Origin: Planctomycetota bacterium
GTDB taxonomy: Bacteria; Planctomycetota; Phycisphaerae; UBA1845
Direction: 5' to 3'
Assembly (NCBI GenBank): GCA_030616775.1
Contig: JAUWWQ010000030.1
Coordinates: forward strand, 1 to 52,977
Length of the DNA stretch: 52,977 nt
Below the pieces are notes generated by a model. It was not told where the DNA came from. It saw only the letters and a list, made by a program, of their open reading frames with translations, and searched no databases. This document shows, in pieces, positions 283-50,308 of the stretch. The stretch's first letter is position 1. The number at the start of each line of letters is the position of its first letter. Both the position numbers and the translations under genes were made by a program.

Positions 283-311
283 TTGCCAGTTGGGTGGTCC
301 AATCGTAGGTT
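283..311 (+). promoter_or_regulatory. Predicted sigma70-type promoter of the first riboswitch unit
   Basis: TTGCCA (283-288), a 17-nt spacer and TAGGTT (306-311). The expected start of transcription, about 7 nt downstream, falls on the first base of aptamer helix P1 (318). The paralogous unit has the same arrangement at 1891-1919, which raises confidence in both. The -10 box alone is weak. Confidence 0.5.
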
Positions 312-317
312 TGTTAC

Positions 318-430
318 GCATCCCGTAGGGGCAAACCAATCGAAAGATTGGGACGCAAAGCGTTGAGTCCGCATATGGAGCGGATTGTCGCGCTACCCAG
401 GATGCCGTCGGGTCGGCATCCTGGAGGGGG
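318..430 (+). promoter_or_regulatory. Cyclic-di-GMP-I (GEMM) riboswitch, copy 1
   Basis: The GEMM-I core is seen directly: GGCAAACC, a hairpin CCAATC-GAAA-GATTGG (336-351) with a GNRA tetraloop, then GGGACGCAAAGC, then a second hairpin with stem TCCGC/GCGGA (368-372/380-384). The base aligned with ligand-contacting G20 of the Vibrio Vc2 aptamer is G, which fits c-di-GMP rather than 3',3'-cGAMP. Helix P1 pairs GCATCC (318-323) with GGATGC (400-405). The same GGATGC is also the 5' arm of a perfect 10-bp hairpin (398-407/414-423) whose 3' arm again contains GCATCC (416-421), so the two structures exclude each other. No U-run follows the hairpin, so translational control or Rho-type attenuation is likelier than intrinsic termination. 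It precedes the TadG-like gene at 467. Confidence 0.92.
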
Positions 431-466
431 TTGAGGCAAAAAGAAAGCTCCGAAGGAGGGCGTCCC

Positions 467-1720
467 ATGAAGCGAATGGTCAACTCAAGCTCGCCTATGC
501 AGCGTCGTGGCGCGATTGCAGTCATTACGGCCATATCCCTGGTAACGGTGCTGATGTGTGCATCGCTTGCGGTAGACGTGGGCTATATCTGTCTCCTGAC
601 GACCGAGGCCCAAAACACGGCCGACGCGGGCGCTTTGGCCGGCGCCGACGCCCTGCGCGAGATCGAGTACGACTCGGTTCTCGATCGAGTGTCCGACATT
701 ATCGCCCGGAACCAATCATCGCAGGGCTTTAATTCTCTGGACGACCAGATTATCGAGATCGGACGGTGGGACACGAGCACGCGGGCGTTCACTGCCATGC
801 TCCCAGCGGAGGCCGGCAGTGCCAATGCCGTTCGTGTCGTCGCCGTGCGAAACGACGTGTCCCTGTTTTTCGCAGCCCTGGCGGGGAAAACGACGACCAA
901 CGTCTCGCGCGAGGCTGTTGCCATGTTCCTGCCGGCCTGCAGCGGGATCTGGGGCATCGACTCGGTCAAGGTCCCGGGCACGATCGAAATTGACAGCTAC
1001 GATTCCCCGGAAGGCCCGTATTCGTCAAGCTCAGCTCACCAAAACGGGGACCTGTGCAGCAACGGAACCATTACGGTATCAGGCAACGCCAATGTCGAGG
1101 GTGACATCAGAACCACTGAAGTGGTCCTGAACGGCGGCGCGATGGACATCACCGGTGTCGTCGAGGACGCCTTGGACCTGGCTACACCGCCGCCCATTGA
1201 TTTCGGCGACGCTGTCACCGACAACGACAACGCCACGATCGGCCTGACCGACGCAGGGAACAACCCCCTGGATAACAGCAGTGTCTCAACGCCCGGTTTC
1301 TATGACCTCCTGCTGTTTAACTCTGAGAATCTTACGCTTGCCCCCGGGACGTACATATTCGACGACATCGAAATGCACGGCACGTCCTCGTTGACACTGA
1401 CGGGCCCCACCACGATCTACCTGGACGATGATCTGGAGATGGAGGGTGGCACCGTGATCAATACCACACAGAATCCGGCGGACCTGACGATCATAGCCGA
1501 TGGAGACTTTGATGGAAGCAACATTAAGCTGACCGGCAACGCCGCGTTCTACGGAGCGATTCTGGCGCCGAACTCAGCGATTCAGCTCACCGGTAACGCC
1601 GACTATTACGGTGCAATAATTGGCCGCACCGTGGATTTCGGCGGAACGTTCAGTTTTCACCTGGACGAGTCGCTACCAATCGCCAGCCAGATGAAGGACC
1701 GGGTAGCCCTGGTCCGATAG
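467..1720 (+). CDS. TadG-like membrane-anchored protein with C-terminal beta-solenoid, paralog 1
   Basis: Predicted 417 aa. The start is ATG 467, behind AAGGAGGG (453-460). A longer in-frame reading from TTG 431 is not conserved in the paralogous leader, where a TAA interrupts it. Residues about 13-38 form one membrane segment, followed by VDVGY and QNTADAGALAGADAL, the hallmark N-terminus of Flp-pilus TadE/TadG-like proteins. The second half is rich in short beta-strand repeats (LTLAPGTYIF, LTGPTTIYL, FYGAILAP, YYGAIIG) and ends in FHLDESLP. This is the pattern of a beta-solenoid domain often attached to PilX/TadG-like N-termini (possibly DUF7305). Probably a surface or pilus-associated structural protein. 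Exact function is unknown. It is controlled by the c-di-GMP riboswitch just upstream, and no other tad genes are in the window. Confidence 0.85.
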   Translation: MKRMVNSSSPMQRRGAIAVITAISLVTVLMCASLAVDVGYICLLTTEAQNTADAGALAGADALREIEYDSVLDRVSDIIARNQSSQGFNSLDDQIIEIGRWDTSTRAFTAMLPAEAGSANAVRVVAVRNDVSLFFAALAGKTTTNVSREAVAMFLPACSGIWGIDSVKVPGTIEIDSYDSPEGPYSSSSAHQNGDLCSNGTITVSGNANVEGDIRTTEVVLNGGAMDITGVVEDALDLATPPPIDFGDAVTDNDNATIGLTDAGNNPLDNSSVSTPGFYDLLLFNSENLTLAPGTYIFDDIEMHGTSSLTLTGPTTIYLDDDLEMEGGTVINTTQNPADLTIIADGDFDGSNIKLTGNAAFYGAILAPNSAIQLTGNADYYGAIIGRTVDFGGTFSFHLDESLPIASQMKDRVALVR

Positions 1721-1890
1721 GGACCGCAGGGCCAACGCTGAATAACAACGTTCGGCCCGTAAATTGGGTAACCAGCGCGTTCCGCTTAAGTAGACTACCT
1801 ATCGGACAGAGTCGAACGCAAGCGTCGGTCCGGCAGACTTATCGCTCACCGGGCTGCGCTCTGCATACAAGAGTCTACCCAAACAGAGAG
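1721..1890. other. Spacer between the two riboswitch-TadG units
   Basis: About 170 bases with no gene that I can support. It separates the stop of paralog 1 from the promoter of paralog 2. I see no strong terminator hairpin, so some read-through is possible. Confidence 0.4.
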
Positions 1891-1919
1891 TTGCCTGCGG
1901 GTATTGTGAATCGTACTCT
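1891..1919 (+). promoter_or_regulatory. Predicted sigma70-type promoter of the second riboswitch unit
   Basis: TTGCCT (1891-1896), a 17-nt spacer and TACTCT (1914-1919). The predicted start of transcription (about 1925-1926) coincides with the 5' strand of aptamer P1. The -35 box and spacing are nearly the same as in copy 1. Confidence 0.5.
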
Positions 1920-1924
1920 TGGGA

Positions 1925-2040
1925 CGACATCCTACAAAAGGCAAACCAATCGAGAGATTGGGACGCAAAGCGTCGAGTCCGCATGTGGAGCGGATTGTCG
2001 CGCTGCCCAGGAGGTCGCAGGGCGCGACATCCTGGAGGGG
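1925..2040 (+). promoter_or_regulatory. Cyclic-di-GMP-I (GEMM) riboswitch, copy 2
   Basis: The aptamer core is nearly identical to copy 1: GGCAAACC, CCAATC-GAGA-GATTGG (1946-1961), GGGACGCAAAGC. The GNRA loop changes from GAAA to GAGA. P1 is CGACATCCT (1925-1933) with AGGAGGTCG (2009-2017), 8 of 9 pairs. The 9-mer CGACATCCT recurs exactly at 2025-2033 as the 3' arm of a competing hairpin (2007-2018/2024-2035, 11 pairs with one G-A mismatch). Copy 1 differs in these arms but keeps the pairing. The Vc2-G20-equivalent base is again G. It controls the TadG-like gene at 2075 and probably the PilZ gene behind it. Confidence 0.92.
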
Positions 2041-2074
2041 GTTGAAGCAAAGAGGCTCCTAAGGAGGGCGTCCC

Positions 2075-3307
2075 ATGAAGCGAATGGTTAACTTGGGTTC
2101 TTCTCCGCGGCGTCGTGGCGTGGTTGTCGTGCTCACGGCCATTTCCATTTTCACCTTGCTTATTTGCGCATCGCTGGCCATTGACGTCGGATACATCTGC
2201 GCGCTCACCGTCGAGCAACAGAACACTGCCGACGCCGGATCGCTTTCCGGGGCGATTGTTCTGCAAGAGGGTGACTCGATGTCGGCCCGTGAACGGGCTC
2301 TTGACATTATCGCACGCAATCAGAAGGCCCAGGGATTTCTTTCCCTGAGAGACCAGATTGTCGAGATCGGCATGTGGGATTCCGTCTTGCAAAGGTTCAC
2401 TCCGCTGGATCCGATGGACTGGGGCAGTGCGTTCGCCGTACGGGTGCGGGCCGCCCGGAACGACGCCCCGCTTTTCTTCGCCCGCCTGATGGGCCATCAC
2501 ACCACGGACGTCTGGCGAGAGGCCGTCGCCGTGGGCAGCCGAAGCTGCGAAGGCATCTGGGGGCTTAACGGTGTACGCGTCCCCGGTAACGTGGTGACCG
2601 ATAGCTATATTTCACCTGACGGTCCTTATGATGCGATTACGGCGCGCGAGAATGGCGATGTTTGCAGCGGCCGCGATATAAGGGTTATGGGGTCTTACGA
2701 CATCAACGGCAACGTGATGGCCGGGTTTGGATATTCCGTCGACGAAAGAGGCGGCGCCGGGAACACCACGGGCCTAACCACGTCGACCACTTCCGGCGTG
2801 GAGGCGCCGCCTGTTGACCTCGAGGACGCGAAGTACAACAACGATAACGGAACAATCGGGTTGACAGACGACGGCAACAGTCCGTTTTCATCGGGACTGA
2901 ACTTGGGGATCGGGTCGCATGACAACTTGACACTCGCCCCCGGAACGTATTTCTTCGAGTCGATGACCTTCCGTGCCGCAGCTTCGCTGACCGTGACCGG
3001 CCCCACCACGATATATTTGACCGGGGATATGGATATAACCGGCGAGGGGACCATCAATACGCCGAAAAACCCCGCGGATCTCACGATTATTTCCGCGGGA
3101 TCTGCCGTCGTGATGACCGGGAGTGTTGAATTCTACGGTTCGATTCTGGCGCCTTTTGCCGACGTTCGGTTGGGCGGAACCAGCGACTACTACGGAGCGA
3201 TCGTTGGCGGGACCGTGACCATGTTTGGCGATTTCCAGTTTCATGTGGATGAGTCGCTGCCGCTCACAAAACTGTTCGATCCGCCGCCGGTGATGTTGGT
3301 CAAGTAA
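2075..3307 (+). CDS. TadG-like membrane-anchored protein with C-terminal beta-solenoid, paralog 2
   Basis: Predicted 410 aa. ATG 2075 follows AAGGAGGG (2061-2068). It begins MKRMVN like paralog 1 and has the same layout: RRRG, one membrane segment (about residues 15-38), IDVGY, then QNTADAGSLSGA. The distal half repeats strand motifs such as LTLAPGTYFF, VTGPTTIYL, FYGSILAP and YYGAIVGG, and ends FHVDESLPL. The central part has diverged from paralog 1 and contains a Gly/Thr-rich stretch. The whole unit (promoter, riboswitch, gene) is a tandem duplication. Likely an exported, c-di-GMP-regulated surface structure. Role beyond that is not visible. The stop lies 89 nt before the PilZ gene, suggesting co-transcription. 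Confidence 0.85.
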   Translation: MKRMVNLGSSPRRRGVVVVLTAISIFTLLICASLAIDVGYICALTVEQQNTADAGSLSGAIVLQEGDSMSARERALDIIARNQKAQGFLSLRDQIVEIGMWDSVLQRFTPLDPMDWGSAFAVRVRAARNDAPLFFARLMGHHTTDVWREAVAVGSRSCEGIWGLNGVRVPGNVVTDSYISPDGPYDAITARENGDVCSGRDIRVMGSYDINGNVMAGFGYSVDERGGAGNTTGLTTSTTSGVEAPPVDLEDAKYNNDNGTIGLTDDGNSPFSSGLNLGIGSHDNLTLAPGTYFFESMTFRAAASLTVTGPTTIYLTGDMDITGEGTINTPKNPADLTIISAGSAVVMTGSVEFYGSILAPFADVRLGGTSDYYGAIVGGTVTMFGDFQFHVDESLPLTKLFDPPPVMLVK

Positions 3308-3396
3308 TGGGAATGGCAAATGCTGAGGAGTATGCGCCAGGCGGGGATCACAAAACGACAGCACTGACAAACACCGTGACTGAAGGACATGACACG

Positions 3397-3864
3397 ATGA
3401 CGACACCCAATGAGAATACAACTGGCGCCTACAAGCGGGAGATCGCTCGACTGATCGCCTTGGCTGTCCAATCTGGCGACACTGACGCATACTCGGGCAA
3501 GAGAGGGGTAACCCGCATCGCCAACGGATTGCAACTAGAAGTAACAACTGATCCCAACAACCCGTCGGCAGCCTGGGCGGTAATCATGCACGACGTGTCG
3601 GAGGGCGGCGTTGCCTTCTGGTCGAAACGAGACCTGTCCCCGAGAACCCTGATTTATATCCGCCAGTTCTCGCCGGACAAGACCCGGCCGTGGATCCCAG
3701 CCTCCGTCAAACATAAGACAGTCGGGCTTCGAGGAAATCTGGTTGGCGCCGAGTTTGACATCTCCCGCAGCGCAGGTTCGGCACCTGGACCCGGAACCTG
3801 TGGCCGTCCGTCCTCCCGACCACTACAGCCGGCCGGTCTCGCCCGACGCGGATTCCCGCGATAG
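3397..3864 (+). CDS. PilZ-domain protein, probable c-di-GMP receptor
   Basis: Predicted 155 aa from ATG 3397, which has GAAGGA just upstream. Reading further up to 3307 adds a low-complexity leader without a ribosome site. The PilZ ligand motifs are both present: R36-GVT-R40 (RxxxR) and D66-VSEGG-71 (D/NxSxxG), with GAEFD closing the barrel. PilZ domains bind c-di-GMP through these residues. The protein lies directly downstream of two c-di-GMP riboswitch-controlled genes, so one signal acts here at RNA and protein level. The last about 35 residues (Pro/Arg/Gly-rich) look unlike normal coding sequence. Another frame overlaps there, so a frameshift near 3770 is possible. No second domain is visible. 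Confidence 0.8.
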   Translation: MTTPNENTTGAYKREIARLIALAVQSGDTDAYSGKRGVTRIANGLQLEVTTDPNNPSAAWAVIMHDVSEGGVAFWSKRDLSPRTLIYIRQFSPDKTRPWIPASVKHKTVGLRGNLVGAEFDISRSAGSAPGPGTCGRPSSRPLQPAGLARRGFPR

Positions 3865-7875: not shown

Positions 7876-10800
7876 GTGATGGGATTGGCACTGACTGGGA
7901 CCAAAGTATATCGGTGGGGGGTACGGCTGGGCATGGCGTCCTGTGCTGCCTTGGCGGTTTTGGCGATAGGCTGTCCGAACGCTCTGGGGCCTGGATCCCC
8001 TAACGGTGATGGGGCCGACGACACCGGCGATTCGGGCGCCACACTGCCCGAAGACGGCGTGGGCGGCGAGATTATCAACGTCTCTGCCAACCTTGGCGTC
8101 TCTGCGCTAAGTCCGCCAATATCCATTCTCTACAGCACAACTGGTACCCCGGATTCGATCTCCGGATTCTACGTTCCCGTTGCTGACCTTAGCCCGGGTG
8201 CCGGACCGGTGGGCGACCGCATCGTCGTGGCCAAAAACCTCTCCGGAGGCAGCAACAAGGCTTTCAGCTTCGATCCTGGTGCGGCCGGCGTCGGCTTCTT
8301 TCGGGTAGGTGTCATTATGATGGTCGGCGGTGAGGAGATCACCGCCCAGAGCAAGGGCACGATCCAGGTTCAGGGCCCACCCAATCCGTTTTTCATCCGG
8401 CCCGCTGATGCGATCACGACGAAGTTTGTAGGCGAGGACGTGTTCATTTCCTTCGACGCAGGTGATCCCGAAGGCGACGTGCAGTGGCGTTTGTTTTACT
8501 TGACGGCAGCCGATTCGCTGGACAATCCGCTCGACCAGCTCGGCACGCTGATCTCGGTGGGAAGCGGCAACTTCGGCTCAGCCACCTTCTCCACAGCAGG
8601 TCTTTCTGCGGGCGACTATGAGCTGGGCCTTTCCGCCACTGATAGTGGGTTTTCGATTGCCACGACGGTTGCCAACGGCGACAGCAACCGGATCGTTACG
8701 ATACCAAACGAGTCGCAAGCCGGTCCGATCATCCGCGTGCTCGACGAGTCGGCTGTCGAGCCGCCCTCCATGACGTTTATAGCCCCGGGCTCAAGTGACG
8801 TTGTGCTCTTCAGGGACGCACCGTTCACCCTGGAGTTTGTTGTGACAATCTTTGAGCCCGGCGCGACTGGTGAGATCGAGCTCTTCTATGACAGCGATTT
8901 CCAAGCCAGCAACGGATTCCAGGGGACAATCCCTGGTGCGGAGGAACTCTCGGCGTCAGAGACCTCGTTTGCGTTGCCGACCGGCTTGCCGGAAGGCACA
9001 TGGTTTATCGGAGCGACAATTCGCACCGTCGGAGGCATCAGTCCCTCTGTGACGTATTACGCATCGGGGCGGATCATGATTGTGCGAGAACCGACGCTGA
9101 CAGTCACCGAGCCAGATAGTCCCCTGCCAGTCTCACCGTCGACGCCCGTCACAGTCGCTTGGACCACCAACGCCCCGCCCTCGTCCGGTACTGTTGATGT
9201 GTTTGCCAGAAGGGTCGGCTCTTCCGACGCGGCGTTCGGCGCCAAAATCGCGATCGAAACGGACGCCCCAATGGCCACCCGCTCGGCAACGTTCGTCAGC
9301 GATACCTCGGGTCTATTCGAGATTACGGTTCGGCTCGAGTTCAACGACAATACAATGAAGTCGGCGACGGCTCCGGCGAGTGTGCGTGTCTCGTCGATAC
9401 CGCCGATCCTCTGGCTGGGGTCTTTGACCGATGACCAGCCGCCGTTTGAAGGCGCCATCTTCGGCGGTGCCAATTTCGAAGACAATGCCGGTACCGCGTT
9501 GACAACGGCCGGTGACCTCGACGGGGACGAATTAGACGAGTTTGTGGTGGGTGCCCGCTACGGCAAGCCGTTTTTCGTGAACCCCTCCGGCGTGGGACCG
9601 GGTGAGGCGTACATCATCTATGGTGCGGCGGGCGGCGGTAAGTTGACCGGTGAATACAGCCTCAACTCGGTGGGAACGGACCTACTGCGCGGGGTGACGC
9701 TTACGGGCATACAAACCGCCAACGGCAGTGACGACACGGAGGGGCTCAGCAGCATTACGCTCATTCCCGATGCCGATGGTGACGGCAAGGGTGAACTGGC
9801 CTTTGGCTTCCCGTTTGTCGATTCGGCGGGAAGCACCGTTGGGGTTCTTGAGGCGGCCGGGCAGTTCCTAAACGGCGGCGTTGTGATCCTGAGCAGCAAC
9901 AACGGCATCCTGCTTGATCCGACGGCGGGGACGCCGGTCATCAACCTGGCCGGCGTCGGGCAGTCCTTCTCCGATATGACGATCGTACCCAGTGGCAACC
10001 CGAACGCATTTAATGACCAGCGGCGTTTCGAGCCGGGGGATCCGGGCTCAGGCACGCCTCCCGGGTGCGTGGACGGCCAGGACGGCGTGGTGGACAACAT
10101 CATCGGCCCTTCCGTGGGGTTCATATCGCTCTTAGCGCCGCCGCGGTGGGAGCAGATAGGCCTGGTGTTCGTCGACTCCACAGAAACAGAGGCCGAGTTA
10201 TGGTGTAGGACTCAGGTGGAGTTGACTGCGGTCTGCACGGAACGGAGCGACCTGAATCCTGAGGACGACGCCGGGTCGGGGTTTTATATTGCCGAGGCGA
10301 TCGCGCTCGAACCTCGAGGGGCGCGCATCATCGGTCCGAGCGAAGGCGACGGATTCGGCACTTCCATCACGGCCAGCAAGGCGCTGGACGATGACGGTCC
10401 CGGGGACCTGATCATCAGTGCTCCCAACCGCGATGCATTTGCCGCGTTCGTCGATGGCATCACGTCGGACATCTCCAACGCCGGTGTTGCATACCTGGCC
10501 GACAATCGGAATCTGTGGGGGCCGGATGAGTTCTTCCTGTCCGGTGAAACACCGCCTACACCTCATCAGTACATTATGGCTTTTGGGAGCCACTGCGGTG
10601 ACGGCCGGGCCCCGTCCCTCGGCGCCATTCGTATTCCCGGGGATGCCAACGACCGCATCGAGGTGATTGAAGGGATCGACGATTTTAACGGCGACAGTCG
10701 CAATGACTTTGCCGTCGGCGCTCCCACCGCCGATCGTGGGCACGGGCGCGTCTACATCGCCTATCGTCGTGAGGAAGCCATCGAGGGCGACTTCGTCCTC

Positions 10801-11748
10801 GACAAGTTGGAGCTCGCTTCCACAGACGCCGAGCGGCTTGACGGGATGCTGATCGTGACGAACTCGCCTGACGGTCTCGGCTCGAGCTTGGCGGGTGGTA
10901 TTGATTTCAACGGCGACGGGCTCTCGGACCTGGTGATCGGAAGCCCGAATGCTTCGGGCGGCGTAGGCGAGGTTCTTGTCGTCTTCGGTAACACGGGCAT
11001 CGTCAGTGGTGCGAATGGGATCAGCGTCAATGACCTTCTGACCACCAGTCGCACGACAGACGGTCGGCCTGTCGCCGTCCGTATCAAGGGCAATCCGCGC
11101 GACAGCAACAGCCAATTCGGTTTCAACGTTGCCAACGTCGGGGACGTGGATGGCGACCGACTTGATGACCTGCTGATCGCCGCGCCGAACGCCTCGCCCC
11201 GGTTTGACCGGGACCCTAATGACGCAGACGACCGCCTCACCGACCTGGGACTGGATCTTGACTTCAACGGTGTCCCGGATGACGTGAGCGGGCCAGCGGG
11301 CCGCCCGGACGGTTCTCTCGACACGTTCGATAACCTCAGCAATGCCGGCATCGTGTATGTAATCCTCAGCGGCAATCGGCTCGACAGGATCAGAACGTGC
11401 ACCGACAGCGGTCGGGTCTGCGAATCGGACGCCGATTGCGATCTGGGAGAACTGTGCGGTAGTGGCGACATGACCATTGATATCGATCAGCTTGGCACGA
11501 ACCAGCTTCGCGGGTTCATGATCGTCGGGCGAAGTGCGGGCGATCGACTGGGCGGCGGGGATGCCGGCGATTCCGACGCCGGCGGTATCGAGGCCAAGGC
11601 TGGACGTGGGCGATCGAAGGGGCTAGCCCCGGCGGGCGATGTCGACGGTGACGGTCGGGCAGACATCTTGATCGGCGCGATCCTGGCTGATCCGGATGGA
11701 CGCACCAACGCCGGCGAGGTCTACCTGATCTACGGGTCTTCCCAGTAA
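7876..11748 (+). CDS. Large FG-GAP (integrin alpha-like) repeat lipoprotein
   Basis: Predicted about 1290 aa. GTG 7876 or the adjacent ATG 7879 may be the start, both behind GGAG (7864-7867). The N-terminus is a lipoprotein signal peptide ending LAIGC. A 500-residue Ig-like/beta region follows. From about residue 530 there are at least five FG-GAP-type blades with calcium-loop sequences: GDLDGDELDEFVVGA, DDFNGDSRNDFAVGAP, DFNGDGLSDLVIGSP, GDVDGDRLDDLLIAAP and GDVDGDGRADILIGA, each followed by a VYLIYG-like strand. Such repeats form a beta-propeller used in adhesion or carbohydrate/protein binding outside the cell. A Cys cluster (CTDSGRVCESDADC..C, about residues 1175-1195) recurs in the next gene product. 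No enzyme motif is seen. Confidence 0.85.
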   Translation: MMGLALTGTKVYRWGVRLGMASCAALAVLAIGCPNALGPGSPNGDGADDTGDSGATLPEDGVGGEIINVSANLGVSALSPPISILYSTTGTPDSISGFYVPVADLSPGAGPVGDRIVVAKNLSGGSNKAFSFDPGAAGVGFFRVGVIMMVGGEEITAQSKGTIQVQGPPNPFFIRPADAITTKFVGEDVFISFDAGDPEGDVQWRLFYLTAADSLDNPLDQLGTLISVGSGNFGSATFSTAGLSAGDYELGLSATDSGFSIATTVANGDSNRIVTIPNESQAGPIIRVLDESAVEPPSMTFIAPGSSDVVLFRDAPFTLEFVVTIFEPGATGEIELFYDSDFQASNGFQGTIPGAEELSASETSFALPTGLPEGTWFIGATIRTVGGISPSVTYYASGRIMIVREPTLTVTEPDSPLPVSPSTPVTVAWTTNAPPSSGTVDVFARRVGSSDAAFGAKIAIETDAPMATRSATFVSDTSGLFEITVRLEFNDNTMKSATAPASVRVSSIPPILWLGSLTDDQPPFEGAIFGGANFEDNAGTALTTAGDLDGDELDEFVVGARYGKPFFVNPSGVGPGEAYIIYGAAGGGKLTGEYSLNSVGTDLLRGVTLTGIQTANGSDDTEGLSSITLIPDADGDGKGELAFGFPFVDSAGSTVGVLEAAGQFLNGGVVILSSNNGILLDPTAGTPVINLAGVGQSFSDMTIVPSGNPNAFNDQRRFEPGDPGSGTPPGCVDGQDGVVDNIIGPSVGFISLLAPPRWEQIGLVFVDSTETEAELWCRTQVELTAVCTERSDLNPEDDAGSGFYIAEAIALEPRGARIIGPSEGDGFGTSITASKALDDDGPGDLIISAPNRDAFAAFVDGITSDISNAGVAYLADNRNLWGPDEFFLSGETPPTPHQYIMAFGSHCGDGRAPSLGAIRIPGDANDRIEVIEGIDDFNGDSRNDFAVGAPTADRGHGRVYIAYRREEAIEGDFVLDKLELASTDAERLDGMLIVTNSPDGLGSSLAGGIDFNGDGLSDLVIGSPNASGGVGEVLVVFGNTGIVSGANGISVNDLLTTSRTTDGRPVAVRIKGNPRDSNSQFGFNVANVGDVDGDRLDDLLIAAPNASPRFDRDPNDADDRLTDLGLDLDFNGVPDDVSGPAGRPDGSLDTFDNLSNAGIVYVILSGNRLDRIRTCTDSGRVCESDADCDLGELCGSGDMTIDIDQLGTNQLRGFMIVGRSAGDRLGGGDAGDSDAGGIEAKAGRGRSKGLAPAGDVDGDGRADILIGAILADPDGRTNAGEVYLIYGSSQ

Positions 11749-12281
11749 ACGGGCGATAGCTAGCGCGTTTGCGGCGATCTGGACCATCCAACAGACCCTG
11801 TGGGCGGACCTTCAACTCGTTCAAGGGACAGACTAGAAAGCCTGTCCAACATTTGTGAGAGGCTCTTATCACTTGTACGGACGATGGGAGGTCGCAGAGC
11901 CGTTTGTTCCCGATAATCACAGCCCCCAGTGTGCTTGGAATCGCGGCGGGCGTGCTCAGTTGACAGACACTTATCACCAGCGATACCATTGCCGTCGGGA
12001 CGAGGTCTCGATGGTCGGTTCGCCTTCTTGCCACAGAGTGTTTTGAGGAGTTGGAGAAGGCGGGGGCTGGCGCTCGGTCGCTCGTGGCGAGCACCACGAC
12101 TTCGCCCGCTCGCCGACGGTGTGTAATCTCTTGCACGGCTCGTGCGTTGCATTGTCGCAGGACGACGAAACCGGGCCCACCTTCGCGCAAGCGTTTACCA
12201 GGGTTTGGCTGTTTGGATTCGAGCGCGCGTCGCATTCCGTACGAGGCGGCGTCGGCGAACACCCATGGGAGTCGCTACAAG
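11749..12281. other. Intergenic region with a possible promoter
   Basis: 530 bases between two giant genes. I see no gene; the open frames on both strands are short of family signatures. TTGACA (11960-11965), an 18-nt spacer and TACCAT (11984-11989) is a plausible promoter for the downstream protease gene, giving a leader of about 285 nt. No clear terminator after 11748. Confidence 0.4.
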
Positions 12282-15200
12282 ATGAAGTCAGGTAAGGCAC
12301 GAATTCGGACCACACGCTGGGTGGCGGTGGCGTGCTCAATGGGCGCTATCGCTTCCTTGCTCCTCACCGTGTCGGCGTTGGCGGGTGATCGCCAGTTTCT
12401 CGTCATCCTGGCGAACTCCTCCAAGGAGTTTCCCGGCGGGCAGCCTCCCGGCGGGCTTACAAACAAGCAGCTCATCCACAATCAGTACTTTGACACGACC
12501 AATCCGAGCATCCAGTCGTTCGCCGAGTACTGGGCGGAAATCAGCTACGGAAACGTCACGATCAGCGGCGAAACGCACGATTGGATCAATCTCCCGTGGC
12601 CGATTCGCCCGACCACCTCACCGGCGGATTTTACGGACCTGAACCAGAGCGAGTACTATGAGTATGGTGCCGGTGAGCTACTCAACCCCTTCCGGGCGAT
12701 GGTCATTGTCGACATCACGGGAGACCCGCGGGACAGCGACGATGGTCCATTCTCCTCGTTTGGAAACCCACCCTATGCCCGAGGCGGCCAGGATCTCACA
12801 TCGCTCGGCCTTCCGATCTGGATGCCTGGAGAACGTTTCATCGATATGGACGGTGATGGCCGGTGGGACGGGCTAGACGAAGCGACCAACTCCATGGACT
12901 GGAACGGTAACGGCCGGCCCGATCTTCTCGGCCCGTGGGTGGATCTTAACAGGAACGACGTCCCTGACAATCCGCAGGACTGCCTTTATCTGTGGGACGA
13001 GGACAACGATGGGTTCCCCAACTGCTGCCCAGACGGCCCGGGGATGCTGAAGTGCGAACCCTTCCCCGCAGAGAACGCCTGTCCCCCAACAAACTGGGAA
13101 GGGCCTGAGGGGGAGATTGAAGACTGCAATGGGAATCTGATCCCTGACGCATGTGATGTCAGCTGCATCTCCCGAGAATGCGAGGATACCGGCTGGCTGG
13201 ACGAGAATCCCGGGCTCTGTGGCGGGAGCGGGGATAGACTCCCCCTCTCTGCCGGGGATCGGGCATGCGACATGGAAGCACCCGACGATATCCCGGACGA
13301 ATGCCAGTTCCAGAACTACCTCATAGATTGCGTCGAACAGGCGGTATCGGACCCCGAGGACCCATGTTCCGGATTTTCCGAGTGTGGTGACATTGGAGAC
13401 TTTCGGACTGCTACACTTCCGCGGTGCGAGTTTTTTGACAGCAATAGCGACGGAACGCTCGACATCGTTGAACCATTCGAGAACTTCCTGCGGCATTGGA
13501 GCCTTCCTGGCGGCTGGGTCATCGTGGATGAACAGTACATCCGGGACAACTACCCCGGCGATGCCAGCAAGGTCGTCAAAAGAGGGGAAGTCCGTACGCT
13601 CTGGGTGGAGAGACCCGGCGAAAATGAGTGTCGGACGCGCGTCCCATGTGGGAGTAATGCGGACTGCGCCGGTGTGCTTGGCACAAACCCCACCTGCAAC
13701 ACTAGTACGCATACATGCGTTACTCAGATACAAAACGCACGGGCGCCGAACGGCAGCATTATCTTCAATGCGTGTCCCGTGGGTGAGCACGCCCAGTACG
13801 ACCCGCCTGATTGGTGGGAGGATATAGGGTCCACCAAGATGCAGCATCAGAACAAACTCCACTTCTCCCCGGAGTTTCTCGAGGAGCTCACGGTTGAACC
13901 GCCGTGGTACAAGCAGGCGTGGGTGGACCGCTACGGGACCGAGCCGCCCCCGTGGGATTGGCCTTTCACGCCCGTCATGATCCCTTCAAAGGACGCGGAG
14001 CGCCGGTGCTTCGTAGCCAACCACGGTGGTCTCAACGGCAACGGAACGGGTTGGTTGGGTTGCAGCGATTTAGATGCCAATATCATCTTCGCAACGGGAG
14101 ATCCGTGTGACGTAGATGAAAGTGCAATCCTGTTTTCGCAGGCCTGCAATAGCCCGATCTTGCCCGAAGAAATGAACGGAATTGGCAGTGTGCTTGTGGT
14201 GTATGATGGTCCTGTGGAGCACGACGACCTTCCCTCGTCGAAGTACCATCGGCACGGCGACCAGCGCCTCGGTGAGGTCACCTCACCTTTTAATGACGAC
14301 ATCTGGGGGCATGACCGCGGGCTTCACCGCCCCGATGTACCTATGATGCCGGACGGTGTCATCCCCCCCGCAGGGCCCTACGCCACGAGTATTCACGGCA
14401 ACTTTGGCCGGGACGGTGGGAATCTTCTCCACATGGAGTTGCTGACTATCCGGACCGAGCCACCCTTCAACACCGGAGACTCCTGGGAATACGACCGGTG
14501 GCTTACCGGTCGCTTCCCCTTCCACCCCTTCGCTGGCTCCCTTCTGGCCTTCCCTGACCTTCTTGGCGAGAACTTCGGCTTTCGCGACTACAACCTCGAC
14601 GGCCTGGTCGATCAGGGTGAGGTTCGCCCCGTCGGGTCGGAAAACTACCTTGTTGACTCCGACACATTCACACCGAACAACGGGACAAACAGTCTGTACC
14701 CGTTTAACCGGCGGCGCCTGCTCGAGGACTGTATTGAAGTCGTGGACGACGCATTCGATCTTGACGATTTCGTGGATACCGTGGCTTTGGAGCGGGTGAC
14801 CTGCGGGGGGCGGTCGGTATCCTGGCCCGTGCCGTCGCGACTTCTTGGCGGAGAGCCGGAAGGTAGTACGGTATTCGCCAGTGGACTCTTGTCCGGGATC
14901 GTACTGTTGCCGCCGGGGGCCCACGACAGCGGTGACTTCCCCTTCGCGCCGAGTTTCTACCCGATCCATAACGAGGACGGTCTGGGTGATCCACAGTATC
15001 TGGATGCCAACCTCCCGCGTTCTCCACGCGACCCGGCACTCGAACCGAACTTTAGTCCGCAGATCAGTTGGAATATTTTTGCACATGATCTGGTGATCGC
15101 TCTGGACACCAACTCGCAGAGTGAGACCATTCCCATAGGGGGGTCCCAGACGGCGTATTCCGCCCACGAGTACTTGCACACCTGGGAGGGCTTCCCCGAT

Positions 15201-18200
15201 CTCTATGATTACGATGTGTTCGAACCACCGGGACCGGTGATCAATTGTCCGGTTGGGGCGTGGGACATCATGGCCAACGGCGGATTGGTCCATCCCGTTC
15301 CCATTCTGAAGGAAAAGCCCTGTACGGAATGGGTCACACCGGTGGATCTCAAGACCGTACTGACGCCTGGTGTTGACACAGTTCTGACACTACCCCAGGC
15401 AGAGTTCATCCGCGATGACAGCTACTACTTCCTTGAAAATGACAACCGCTACGGCGAGCGCTATTACTTCTGGTCTGCCGGGAGCGGGTTCGATGCGCGC
15501 ATGCCCGGAGAAGGGCTGCTAATCCTGCACACCGACGTGGGCTCCAACCCGGACGCCCTACCGCCCCAACAGCGAAGCGGCACCCGCCCCACGTACCTGA
15601 TCGTCCAAGGGGATGGGTTCGGTGAACTCCAGGCCGGTACCGACTGTGGCGATGATGGTGACCCCTGGCCCGGCAGCGCCGACGCAACCCGGTTTAATCT
15701 CGATACCTTACCGCCAGCTACGTGGTACACGCAGAACAGTTGGACGGGGATCGACGTCCTAGATGTCCTGCCCGATGGGAGTGGTTCCGTGCAACTGAAG
15801 ATCAACTGGGTGCCAACAAGCATCCCCAGCTTGCGGTTCATCGATCCGCCCGGCGGGGAGTCGGTCGGCTCCACATACCAGGTGCGCTTCGAGGCAACCG
15901 ATGTATACGGTGGCACGACGATCCGCATGTATTACATGAACGACGAGAAAGTGTGTAGCGACAGCGGCGCATCGTGCGAGGACGACTACGATTGTCTAGA
16001 TGAATTCTGTGCCCACAAACCGACGATTCTTCCAGGCGGCGACAACTTGATCGGCCAAATGAGAAAGACCACCCCGGGCACTAACCAATTGAGTATGGAC
16101 TGGAACATCAGTGGTGTTCCGGACGGTCGCTACGTGCTCTTTGCGAAGCTGATTCCGGGCCAAGGCTCGGATGGAATCGAGCGTGACGCGACGGACCCGC
16201 GCCCAGGGCGCAACAACCTCGGTAATGGCTCGTTGGTCGTGGACAACGTCAACATCACCGGTAACTCAGCCCGCTCCGAGACCTGGACGGCCATTTGCCT
16301 TGATGCCGACGGCCAGCGGTGGCGGGTGAACAGCAGCTTGACTCAGCCGGTGCTCAATGAGGATGATCCGGATGCGGATCCCTACGACCGGGCCTTCACC
16401 GGGCAACCGTACACGTCGAGAAAAAGCGCAGTGCGGTTCACGATCAATGAGAGTACCAAGCCATTCGTGTTGGAAGACACATTAACGTTCACGACAACCG
16501 GAATCACAGCGGTTAGCCGGAGCGTGGCAATCATCAACGGGCAGATCAAGGAAGATCCAACGGCCGTCATAAGTGCGTCACCGCTTGCATGTCCAGCCCC
16601 GAGCGAAGACTTAGGGCCATGTCCGCCTTTGACGGTCACGTTCGACGGCCGCCGTTCGTACGATCCGAACGGGGAACCCCTCGAATACCGTTGGGACTTC
16701 GGCGACGGAAGTGAGCCGGTCAGCGGGTCACAGGTCCAGAACACCTTTGATGAGGCGGGAACCTTCACGGTAGTGCTCCGGGTCACCAATCCGAACAACG
16801 GGCGCTCCGATGAGGCCGCGGTGGACATCAAGGTGACCAACAACTCACCGCAGGCGGTCATCTCCGCTTCGCCGACAAACGGACCGACACCGGAAGAGTG
16901 CGACCCCGCGTGTTCGCTCGAGGTCCAGTTCAGTGGAGCACAGTCCAGTGATTCTGAGACGTCATCCAACCGGTTGGTCTATCACTGGGATTTCGGTGAC
17001 GGTGCCACCGCCAACAACGCGCTGACCCCGGGGACGGCCTTTCAGATGGTCGAGCACTTGTACCGGAATCGAGCGGATGGGACCGAGGATGGGACCGAAT
17101 GCACGGTCGCAGATCCGTGCACCTTCATCGCCACATTGACCGTGATTGACGAGGGTGGTAAGGAAGATACGGATACTGCAACAATCCGAGTAGGCAACAC
17201 CAATCCCGTGCCCCACATTACCCACACCGCTCTCGAAGGACCCGATCCGTGGTCCGTGGTCTTCAATGCCATCGGTTCATCTGACCCGGACGGCGACGAA
17301 TTGTGCGTCAAGTGGGAGTGGGGTGATGAGGGAGTCGATGTCTTCCCCGTCACCGGACAAGAAGGGGCGACCGACGGCAGCGTAGCCCACGAGTATAAGC
17401 TTCTGGCGGGGGACACTTTCGGATCGTTCTCCACCAAAGCGACCGTGTACGACGATCGCTGTCTGGGAGACGATGGTTGCGACTTGCTGAAGCAAAAGCT
17501 GCTTGAAGATCCTGACTGGGATGACCCTCGTTGCGGAAAGGCTGTACGGCTGTTTACAGTCACTGTGAGCGAGGCCACCGTCGGCGCTTCCGACCCGCGG
17601 GCAATCTTCACGATTGATCCGCCGCAGCCGCTATTGGATGAAGAGTTTACCGTGGACGCCTCGATGTCTTACGACCTGCCGCCGGGCCACGTGATCGTGT
17701 CGTATGGCTGGCGTTGGGGTGATGGTACAGCAACGGGCTTGGGCCGGACTGCTACGCATACCTACACGGCGCCTGGAACGTACACGATCACGCTGACGGT
17801 TGAGGACGACGAGGATCCACCGAACACGGGTAGTACCTCGCGGATTGTAGTCATAAGCGGTGACGGGGAGATCGAGCCGCCGGAGCCTGACAACCAGCCC
17901 CCGATCGCGCTGTTCACTGTGAATCCGCCGAGCGGATTCGCCGGCGTCACCCTATTCACGTTCAACGCGAGTGCCTCCTCCGACCCGGACGGGGATGACA
18001 CCAAGCTCTCGTATCGGTGGTCGTTCGGCGACGGCGACCCGTACGAGACCGGTGCAGTGGTGACGCACGTTTTTGACCAGCCGAACCTCAGCGGCTACGT
18101 AGTGCGGCTTACTGTTCGGGACGAGGGCAATGCCTCGACGGTGTTCACGCGTGAGGTGATCGTCAAGGAAAGCGTGGGCAACCAGTCCCCACACGCCTAC

Positions 18201-18638
18201 ATAGCCACCGGACCGCGAACGGGAACCGCACCGGTGACGTTGACCTTCGACGGACGCAACTCGTTCGATCCTGACGGCGATTTGCTTCAGTTCCGGTGGG
18301 AGTTTTCGTCCGGGGGCGTCTTGATCGACACGCTCATCGGACCTCAGGTCACCAGGCTCTTTAGCGAATCCGGCACGTACACGGTCGAGTTGGAGGTCTC
18401 GGACGGGCGCGGCCTGTCAGACCGTGCAGATCCGCAGACCATCGTGATCACGGCTCCGACCGAGCTCCCGCCACCACCGCCGGGACCAACCGAACCGGAA
18501 CCCGGGCAAGAGATACCGAACAGTGCCGATCAGCGCCCGCTCACGCAAATGTGTGGCTTCGGCATGATCGGCAGCCTGTTCGCCTCGCTGCTGGGTCTGA
18601 CCGCGATCCGGGCCACCCGTAGGTGGCGGAGACTCTAG
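12282..18638 (+). CDS. Secreted M6-like metalloprotease with six PKD domains and a C-terminal anchor
   Basis: Predicted 2118 aa. The start is ATG 12282: GGGAG lies about 10 nt upstream and a signal peptide follows (TTRWVAVACS...SALAG). The frame extends further up, but without signal-like sequence. Residues 962-966 are HEYLH followed by GFPDLYD, matching the zinc motif HExxH...G.PDLYD of M6 (immune inhibitor A-like) peptidases; Glu963 would be catalytic. The region before it has D/N-rich calcium-loop-like stretches (DMDGDGRWDG, DWNGNGRPD) and Cys clusters. Six PKD-type domains (WDFGDG, WRWGDG, WSFGDG variants) fill about residues 1430-2050. The end (CGFGMIGSLFASLLGL, then RATRRWRR) is a Cys-hydrophobic-Arg tail like the CTERM sorting signals of planctomycetes and myxobacteria. 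Likely an exported, surface-retained protease. Confidence 0.85.
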   Translation: MKSGKARIRTTRWVAVACSMGAIASLLLTVSALAGDRQFLVILANSSKEFPGGQPPGGLTNKQLIHNQYFDTTNPSIQSFAEYWAEISYGNVTISGETHDWINLPWPIRPTTSPADFTDLNQSEYYEYGAGELLNPFRAMVIVDITGDPRDSDDGPFSSFGNPPYARGGQDLTSLGLPIWMPGERFIDMDGDGRWDGLDEATNSMDWNGNGRPDLLGPWVDLNRNDVPDNPQDCLYLWDEDNDGFPNCCPDGPGMLKCEPFPAENACPPTNWEGPEGEIEDCNGNLIPDACDVSCISRECEDTGWLDENPGLCGGSGDRLPLSAGDRACDMEAPDDIPDECQFQNYLIDCVEQAVSDPEDPCSGFSECGDIGDFRTATLPRCEFFDSNSDGTLDIVEPFENFLRHWSLPGGWVIVDEQYIRDNYPGDASKVVKRGEVRTLWVERPGENECRTRVPCGSNADCAGVLGTNPTCNTSTHTCVTQIQNARAPNGSIIFNACPVGEHAQYDPPDWWEDIGSTKMQHQNKLHFSPEFLEELTVEPPWYKQAWVDRYGTEPPPWDWPFTPVMIPSKDAERRCFVANHGGLNGNGTGWLGCSDLDANIIFATGDPCDVDESAILFSQACNSPILPEEMNGIGSVLVVYDGPVEHDDLPSSKYHRHGDQRLGEVTSPFNDDIWGHDRGLHRPDVPMMPDGVIPPAGPYATSIHGNFGRDGGNLLHMELLTIRTEPPFNTGDSWEYDRWLTGRFPFHPFAGSLLAFPDLLGENFGFRDYNLDGLVDQGEVRPVGSENYLVDSDTFTPNNGTNSLYPFNRRRLLEDCIEVVDDAFDLDDFVDTVALERVTCGGRSVSWPVPSRLLGGEPEGSTVFASGLLSGIVLLPPGAHDSGDFPFAPSFYPIHNEDGLGDPQYLDANLPRSPRDPALEPNFSPQISWNIFAHDLVIALDTNSQSETIPIGGSQTAYSAHEYLHTWEGFPDLYDYDVFEPPGPVINCPVGAWDIMANGGLVHPVPILKEKPCTEWVTPVDLKTVLTPGVDTVLTLPQAEFIRDDSYYFLENDNRYGERYYFWSAGSGFDARMPGEGLLILHTDVGSNPDALPPQQRSGTRPTYLIVQGDGFGELQAGTDCGDDGDPWPGSADATRFNLDTLPPATWYTQNSWTGIDVLDVLPDGSGSVQLKINWVPTSIPSLRFIDPPGGESVGSTYQVRFEATDVYGGTTIRMYYMNDEKVCSDSGASCEDDYDCLDEFCAHKPTILPGGDNLIGQMRKTTPGTNQLSMDWNISGVPDGRYVLFAKLIPGQGSDGIERDATDPRPGRNNLGNGSLVVDNVNITGNSARSETWTAICLDADGQRWRVNSSLTQPVLNEDDPDADPYDRAFTGQPYTSRKSAVRFTINESTKPFVLEDTLTFTTTGITAVSRSVAIINGQIKEDPTAVISASPLACPAPSEDLGPCPPLTVTFDGRRSYDPNGEPLEYRWDFGDGSEPVSGSQVQNTFDEAGTFTVVLRVTNPNNGRSDEAAVDIKVTNNSPQAVISASPTNGPTPEECDPACSLEVQFSGAQSSDSETSSNRLVYHWDFGDGATANNALTPGTAFQMVEHLYRNRADGTEDGTECTVADPCTFIATLTVIDEGGKEDTDTATIRVGNTNPVPHITHTALEGPDPWSVVFNAIGSSDPDGDELCVKWEWGDEGVDVFPVTGQEGATDGSVAHEYKLLAGDTFGSFSTKATVYDDRCLGDDGCDLLKQKLLEDPDWDDPRCGKAVRLFTVTVSEATVGASDPRAIFTIDPPQPLLDEEFTVDASMSYDLPPGHVIVSYGWRWGDGTATGLGRTATHTYTAPGTYTITLTVEDDEDPPNTGSTSRIVVISGDGEIEPPEPDNQPPIALFTVNPPSGFAGVTLFTFNASASSDPDGDDTKLSYRWSFGDGDPYETGAVVTHVFDQPNLSGYVVRLTVRDEGNASTVFTREVIVKESVGNQSPHAYIATGPRTGTAPVTLTFDGRNSFDPDGDLLQFRWEFSSGGVLIDTLIGPQVTRLFSESGTYTVELEVSDGRGLSDRADPQTIVITAPTELPPPPPGPTEPEPGQEIPNSADQRPLTQMCGFGMIGSLFASLLGLTAIRATRRWRRL

Positions 18639-50200: not shown

Positions 50201-50308
50201 ACGCGGCGATCACCTACTCTCGCCTTTCGACTACCATCGGCCGGGTGGGCTTAACTACCGTGTTCGGAATGGGAACGGGTGTATCCCCACACGTATCATC
50301 ACCGCTGT
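50201..50308 (-). rRNA. rrf: 5S ribosomal RNA
   Basis: The minus strand shows the conserved 5S core CCCATTCCGAACACGG, then GTTAAGCCCACCCGGCCGATGGTAGT (split in the conserved GTTAAGC and CCGATGGTAGT), then GCGAGAGTAGGTGATCGCCGC. The ends GCGGTGAT (50298-50305) and ATCGCCGC (50203-50210) pair as helix I with one G-U. Exact ends are uncertain by a few bases. No 23S or 16S gene lies within 50 kb to the left or 2.6 kb to the right, so this 5S is unlinked. Confidence 0.93.

Follow-up and report, generated by a model that had tools for sequence, protein, structure and literature searches.

Two c-di-GMP-I riboswitches of an uncultured planctomycete with a conserved hairpin directly after the aptamer and a core strand complementary to the start-codon spacer

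The window, a stretch of 52,977 nucleotides from a Planctomycetota contig (JAUWWQ010000030.1), holds two c-di-GMP-I (GEMM-I) riboswitch leaders, each with a hairpin, H1, directly after the aptamer and with an aptamer core strand whose exact complement lies between the Shine-Dalgarno (SD) sequence and the start codon of the following gene. Our best explanation, to which as a whole we give slightly less than an even chance, is a c-di-GMP-I design specific to the order, in which H1 stands in for the closing helix P1 and pairing between core and start region makes a translational ON switch. More tentatively, it may be a sub-architecture found throughout the order, in which a hairpin starting at nucleotide (nt) 93 replaced P1 and the SD-AUG spacer partners the core, masking the start codon until c-di-GMP is present. 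If this is true, the coupling of aptamer to translation differs in that P1 has been dropped in favour of a covarying hairpin and a start-codon spacer competes with the core, and Tad-like surface proteins of uncultured planctomycetes would be under c-di-GMP control.

Aptamers, target genes and relatives

A covariance-model search matched both elements to RF01051, with 60.4 bits for copy 1 and 65.6 bits for copy 2 (at 1930-2010) against a gathering cut-off of 35, so that the two paralogous c-di-GMP-I riboswitches proposed by the sequence-only reading were confirmed; a search of the genome gave these two matches as the only ones over the cut-off. G20, A47 and C92, which we take to be the ligand-contacting positions of this aptamer, are present in copy 1 (330, 357 and 396) and in copy 2 (1940, 1967 and 2006). 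Copy 2 also scored above the cut-off of the c-di-GMP-I-GGC family, RF03167 (61.8 versus 59 bits, 1931-2011), where "GGC", judging from the consensus, presumably names positions 20, 47 and 92. However, nt 47 is A in both copies (GACGCA) and G in the RF03167 consensus (GACGCG). Copy 2 is therefore no true GGC variant, and this assignment was rejected, RF01051 also giving it the higher score. Both elements are c-di-GMP-I aptamers, which would be expected to bind c-di-GMP.

The two neighbouring genes that follow the aptamers, one after each, have Tad-type N-terminal and DUF7305 domains and encode pilus-like surface proteins (Table 1). For gene 1, Tad (34.3 bits), Tad_C (36.2 bits) and DUF7305 (59.7 bits) are all above the Pfam cut-off; for gene 2, DUF7305 (55.9 bits) and Tad_C (28.7 bits) are above it and Tad, at 21.6 bits, falls just below its cut-off of 22.3. 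Directly 3' of gene 2, and overlapping its stop codon, lies a PilZ-like gene. PilZ domains can bind c-di-GMP, and therefore the signal may act on both RNA and protein at this locus. A few kb beyond the riboswitch genes lie two very large forward-strand ORFs, one with FG-GAP repeats (7876-11748, 1290 aa) and one with PKD domains (12051-18638, 2195 aa); their products are probably cell-surface proteins.

Table 1. Positions of leader elements and adjoining genes in the window
Feature	Positions	Strand	Remarks
AATCGTA promoter-like element, copy 1	301-307	+	common to relatives
5' segment GCATCC (proposed P1 5' strand), copy 1	318-323	+	present; no specific pairing in relatives
c-di-GMP-I aptamer, copy 1	320-400	+	RF01051 60.4 bits
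Aptamer core GGGACGC, copy 1	350-356	+	complementary to start-site spacer
H1, copy 1: 11-bp stem from nt 93	397-424	+	-21.7 kcal/mol, P ~1.0
H2, copy 1: GGGGTT (427-432) with AGCTCC (446-451)	427-451	+	predicted in optimal folds
Shine-Dalgarno AGGAGG, copy 1	454-459	+	
SD-AUG spacer GCGTCCC, copy 1	460-466	+	P(core:start) 0.96; 0.06 with spacer shuffled
Gene 1, Tad/TadG-like surface protein with DUF7305	467-1720	+	Pfam
AATCGTA promoter-like element, copy 2	1909-1915	+	
5' segment CGACATCCT (proposed P1 5' strand), copy 2	1925-1933	+	one A·G mismatch with 2009-2017
c-di-GMP-I aptamer, copy 2	1931-2011	+	RF01051 65.6 bits; RF03167 61.8 bits
Aptamer core GGGACGC, copy 2	1960-1966	+	complementary to start-site spacer
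H1, copy 2: 11 bp with one G·A mismatch, from nt 93	2007-2035	+	-18.2 kcal/mol, P 0.86
H2, copy 2: GGGGGTT (2037-2043) with GGCTCCT (2054-2060)	2037-2060	+	predicted in optimal folds
Shine-Dalgarno AGGAGG, copy 2	2062-2067	+	
SD-AUG spacer GCGTCCC, copy 2	2068-2074	+	P(core:start) 0.65; 0.04 with spacer shuffled
Gene 2, Tad/TadG-like surface protein with DUF7305	2075-3307	+	Pfam
PilZ-like gene, possible c-di-GMP receptor	3307-3864	+	Pfam PilZ 20.0 bits, below cut-off 22.5

Relatives were collected by RF01051 searches of the class (397 genomes drawn), the order (114), the family (51) and the phylum (392 drawn). The comparative set comprised 28 leaders of the window's order, both window copies included, and the control set 35 other Phycisphaerae leaders, among them L015, an order member with the canonical GAG junction. 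L028, which has an H1-like layout and a truncated 5' side, was left out, and L085 is cut by a contig end. The 28 order leaders have a common layout of aptamer, H1 and, usually, a Tad-like gene. For the other Phycisphaerae leaders, most of the targets that could be recognised, by sequence motif only, code for PilM-like proteins or type IV pilins. A DNA pattern of the aptamer also matched in metagenome assemblies of Phycisphaerae and other Planctomycetota. Upstream of the aptamer, 25 of the 28 leaders carry an [A]ATYGTA element, which lies at -38 to -28 relative to G21; a sigma-70 consensus match was sought at this element and none was found, and it is perhaps a lineage-specific promoter element.

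Hairpin H1 and the pairing of core and start-codon spacer

H1 is genuine, highly conserved and covarying in the order. Its 5' arm begins directly after C92 in 26 of the 28 leaders, at nt 93 in 23 and at nt 94 in three, in a search that allowed a start only within the first four nt. Permutation of partners among the 28 leaders gave z = -10.7 for pairing of the arms, with z = 10.9 for the best register, and H1 alone stood out clearly among 36 segment pairs tested in this way. The outer four pairs are standard in 26 of 26 leaders, each with several pair types and many of them compensatory (L063 and L082 were not counted, as their outermost pair is ambiguous), and all six outer pairs form in 71% of order members, as compared to 14% of other Phycisphaerae leaders and 8% of shuffles. 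The downstream hairpin of the sequence-only reading is thus real and, as had been proposed, uses the would-be P1 3' strand. The distance from the end of H1 to the start codon is 27-47 nt in 24 leaders. L041, L049 and L072 form a separate subtype in which nt 93 is A, H1 begins at nt 94 and the start codon follows H1 after 90-115 nt; given these features, they probably use a different expression platform.

The second feature had been overlooked by the sequence-only reading. The spacer GCGTCCC is the exact complement of the core strand GGGACGC, which in copy 1 comprises the end of the P2 3' strand, the junction and the P1b 3' strand just before A47; one more pair extends the duplex to TGGGACGC/GCGTCCCA, 8 bp including the A of AUG. 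This complementarity is exact and specific to the leaders. In 12 of the 28 leaders, from at least seven genera in three families, core and start region can form six or more uninterrupted Watson-Crick pairs. When cores were compared with 205 other SD-preceded starts, 1.05% of comparisons reached this length, and the match does not exceed 5 nt in the remaining Phycisphaerae leaders. The genome-wide spacer statistics were drawn from pattern searches and from fetched loci. Across the 51 genomes of the family, the exact GGAGGGCGTCCCATG occurred five times, always within one of these leaders, while sites with one mismatch comprised three more leaders and a background-like remainder. Matched changes are seen in L042 (core GGCGC, spacer GCGCC) and a G·U pair is tolerated in L073, whereas L063 is a counter-example with a changed core and an unchanged spacer. 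Since the core hardly varies, there is little covariation of core and spacer to be seen, and common descent of leader and gene start could have raised the number of matches. About 11 of the 28 leaders have no such match; it is therefore not universal, and those leaders must use another platform.

In the mechanism we propose, the strand that would close P1 folds on itself into H1 directly after C92. H1 would be constitutive, is predicted to persist in both states and may stack under the ligand site as a substitute for P1. Without ligand, GGGACGC and the flanking U would pair with GCGUCCCA, that is the SD-AUG spacer and the A of AUG, burying the start codon. Binding of c-di-GMP would fold the core (G21-C46, C22-G45, A47), so that the strand would be occupied by the aptamer and the start region therefore released, turning on the Tad-like surface protein. 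C-di-GMP is usually linked to attachment, and an ON switch of a surface protein would fit this link.

Folding predicted the core-start helix, with AUG buried in it, at the probabilities listed in Table 1, and these dropped to about 0.05 once the spacer was shuffled. Imposing the P1b pairs of the aptamer cost 5.4 kcal/mol in copy 1 and 0.5 kcal/mol in copy 2, plausibly in the range that ligand binding could supply. With the aptamer forced, in folding that did not include ligand, tertiary contacts or co-transcriptional order, exposure of the start rose from 0.19 to 0.39 in copy 1 and from 0.19 to 0.20 in copy 2; the corresponding changes were 0.10 to 0.45 in L044, 0.11 to 0.60 in L045b and 0.24 to 0.75 in L027. 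The start of copy 2 thus remains mostly paired, and only for copy 1 and several relatives do the folds clearly predict release. Exposure of the SD falls rather than rises in the aptamer-forced folds of both copies. We regard core-start pairing as a likelier switch than the three-strand exchange of the sequence-only reading and give it about an even chance.

The same data could be read differently, with H1 as a constitutive P1 substitute or insulator, control exerted elsewhere (H2, for example, might expose or cover the SD) and the core-spacer match inherited and functionless. H1 is indeed kept in all 28 leaders, including those about 11 where the match is missing, and complementarity between the segments after H1 and before the SD, which form H2, ranked next to H1 in the permutation tests (p = 0.006, uncorrected for the 36 tests), giving H2 weak comparative support. 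Against this, the spacer is GCGTCCC or nearly so in at least seven genera and three families while the adjacent H1 sequence has been replaced, its exact 15-mer context occurs only in these leaders, and the core strand that it matches is nearly invariant. We consider a functionless match rather unlikely and prefer core-start pairing.

The P1 helix

According to the sequence-only reading, the P1 3' strand is complementary both to the 5' end of the RNA and to the distal arm of the downstream hairpin, and this three-way complementarity covaries between the copies. All of the segments it quoted are in place. In copy 1, GCATCC at 318-323 and at 416-421 is perfectly complementary to GGATGC (400-405). 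In copy 2, CGACATCCT at 1925-1933 and at 2025-2033 faces AGGAGGTCG (2009-2017) with an A·G mismatch that had gone unmentioned, leaving 8 of 9 pairs either way.

The relatives support one part of this reading, as the downstream arm covaries with the P1 3' strand and the 5' strand does not. Pairing of the P1 5' and 3' strands in the 28 leaders had a mean of -6.21 kcal/mol, equal to that of swapped partners (p = 0.50), and no register gave a signal above chance. The same test detected P1 in the 35 other Phycisphaerae leaders (-10.26 native versus -7.36 kcal/mol swapped, p < 1e-4) and therefore has power. Swapped partners match or beat the native P1 complementarity in 15% (copy 1) and 19% (copy 2) of cases; taken alone, an identity of 9 nt as in copy 2 is uncommon, with 4 of 756 swapped pairs reaching it. 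L036, from another genus, has the identical CGACATCCT 5' end without the matching arm, and the 5' CATCC/ACCC motif also persists in leaders whose P1 3' strand is unable to pair with it, such as L023, L036 and L046. Within the genus (six leaders), P1 is possible only in the window copies and L022 and impossible in L044, L045 and L045b, so that three-way complementarity is restricted to the two window copies and one copy of the same genus. Complementarity within two paralogues is poor evidence of covariation, and the 26 added relatives removed one of its three legs: riboswitch identity and conserved hairpin stand, and three-way covariation fails. The earlier observation was thus real in part, and its interpretation is partly supported.

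P1 is a variable closing helix outside the Rfam model, and these leaders do not share it as a class feature. The lack of P1 covariation and the retention of the motif without pairing indicate, from the comparison of leaders, that P1 has been lost as a conserved element in the order and replaced by H1. We also considered, and set aside, pairing of the 5' CCC motif with the GGG that follows H1 as a P1-like helix; it showed only a weak trend (p = 0.08 to 0.13; z 3.2 for the best register of 280).

Taken as a switch, the three-strand exchange would have c-di-GMP stabilise P1, upon which H1 dissolves and the freed ATCCT pairs with the SD AGGAGG. Six P1 pairs in copy 1 and eight in copy 2 are possible, and exchange on P1 is established as a way in which GEMM-I riboswitches work (PMC9262584). 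When P1 was forced, the freed H1 3' arm paired with the SD and SD exposure fell from 0.95 to 0.20 (copy 1) and from 0.73 to 0.30 (copy 2); the model therefore amounts to translation being OFF with ligand. Complementarity of the H1 3' arm and the SD is weakly specific in the permutation test (p = 0.04), which is unconvincing alone. However, folding with and without the P1 constraint spoke against the exchange: the probability of P1 in unconstrained ensembles is about 0 in both copies, that of H1 being 1.00 and 0.86, and forcing P1 raises the energy over that of the optimal fold by about 11 kcal/mol in copy 1 and about 7.5 kcal/mol in copy 2. Three of the six same-genus leaders have no P1, and its covariation, detectable in other Phycisphaerae, is absent from the 28 leaders. 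Switching through P1 is possible in the two window copies, without comparative support, and we regard it as improbable.

Transcriptional control, with H1 as a pause site or Rho-related attenuator and ligand altering read-through, is very unlikely, since the strong hairpin adjoining the aptamer (-18 to -22 kcal/mol) has neither a U-run nor a terminator-like site and its distance to the start codon is translation-like. An intrinsic terminator or U-run was sought at both H1 hairpins and none was found; a transcription-terminating riboswitch was rejected on this basis, and the sequence-only reading was right to expect a non-terminator expression platform.

Known c-di-GMP-I systems and further leaders

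The window copies resemble other RF01051 members in the P2/P3 core, in G20, A47 and C92 and in having surface and pilus genes as targets; they differ in that P1 is not conserved, H1 starts from nt 93 and the start-site spacer is complementary to the core. Cd1 of Clostridioides difficile is a c-di-GMP-I aptamer without detectable P1, whose downstream hairpin can coexist with the folded aptamer and whose affinity improved from 1.9 to 0.25 uM on adding one nucleotide after the ligand-contacting C (PMC9262584). P1 is therefore not strictly defining for c-di-GMP-I, and a P1-less aptamer is plausible. Both features of Cd1 have their counterpart here, but Cd1 controls a terminator, whereas here there is none and the candidate platform is translational. 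In Vc2 of Vibrio cholerae, ligand is reported not to bind without P1, which is thus essential there (PMC9262584), and by analogy the P1-less aptamer may therefore bind ligand weakly.

P1 strand exchange is established for Vc2 and for the Geobacter pilM cGAMP riboswitch (PMC9262584). In pilM the P1 3' strand is common to P1 and a downstream hairpin, as the sequence-only reading had proposed for the window, but there P1 forms in the presence of ligand and the platform is a terminator, whereas here P1 is not conserved and a terminator is lacking. Vc2 exerts translational c-di-GMP-I control, as in our proposal, but it switches via P1 and is OFF with ligand, whereas here the core would be the switching strand and the direction ON. 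In both systems switching thus runs through P1, in contrast to the design proposed here (PMC9262584). A literature search that covered few subscription journals found no description of a c-di-GMP-I switch in these bacteria or of core-start pairing.

Several further loci were noted. The genome of L045, of the same genus, has four c-di-GMP-I leaders, of which L045b, on the reverse strand, apparently controls a Flp-pilin-like protein (Flp_Fap 19.3 bits, below the cut-off) that has a Gly/Lys-rich tail and adjoins a Tad-like gene with its own leader. In the phylum search, family f70 showed about 10 c-di-GMP-I aptamers per genome in many genomes, some in close tandem (for example G616:C1:2195100-2195293). 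The window itself also contains a 5S rRNA gene at 50201-50306 on the minus strand (75.3 bits).
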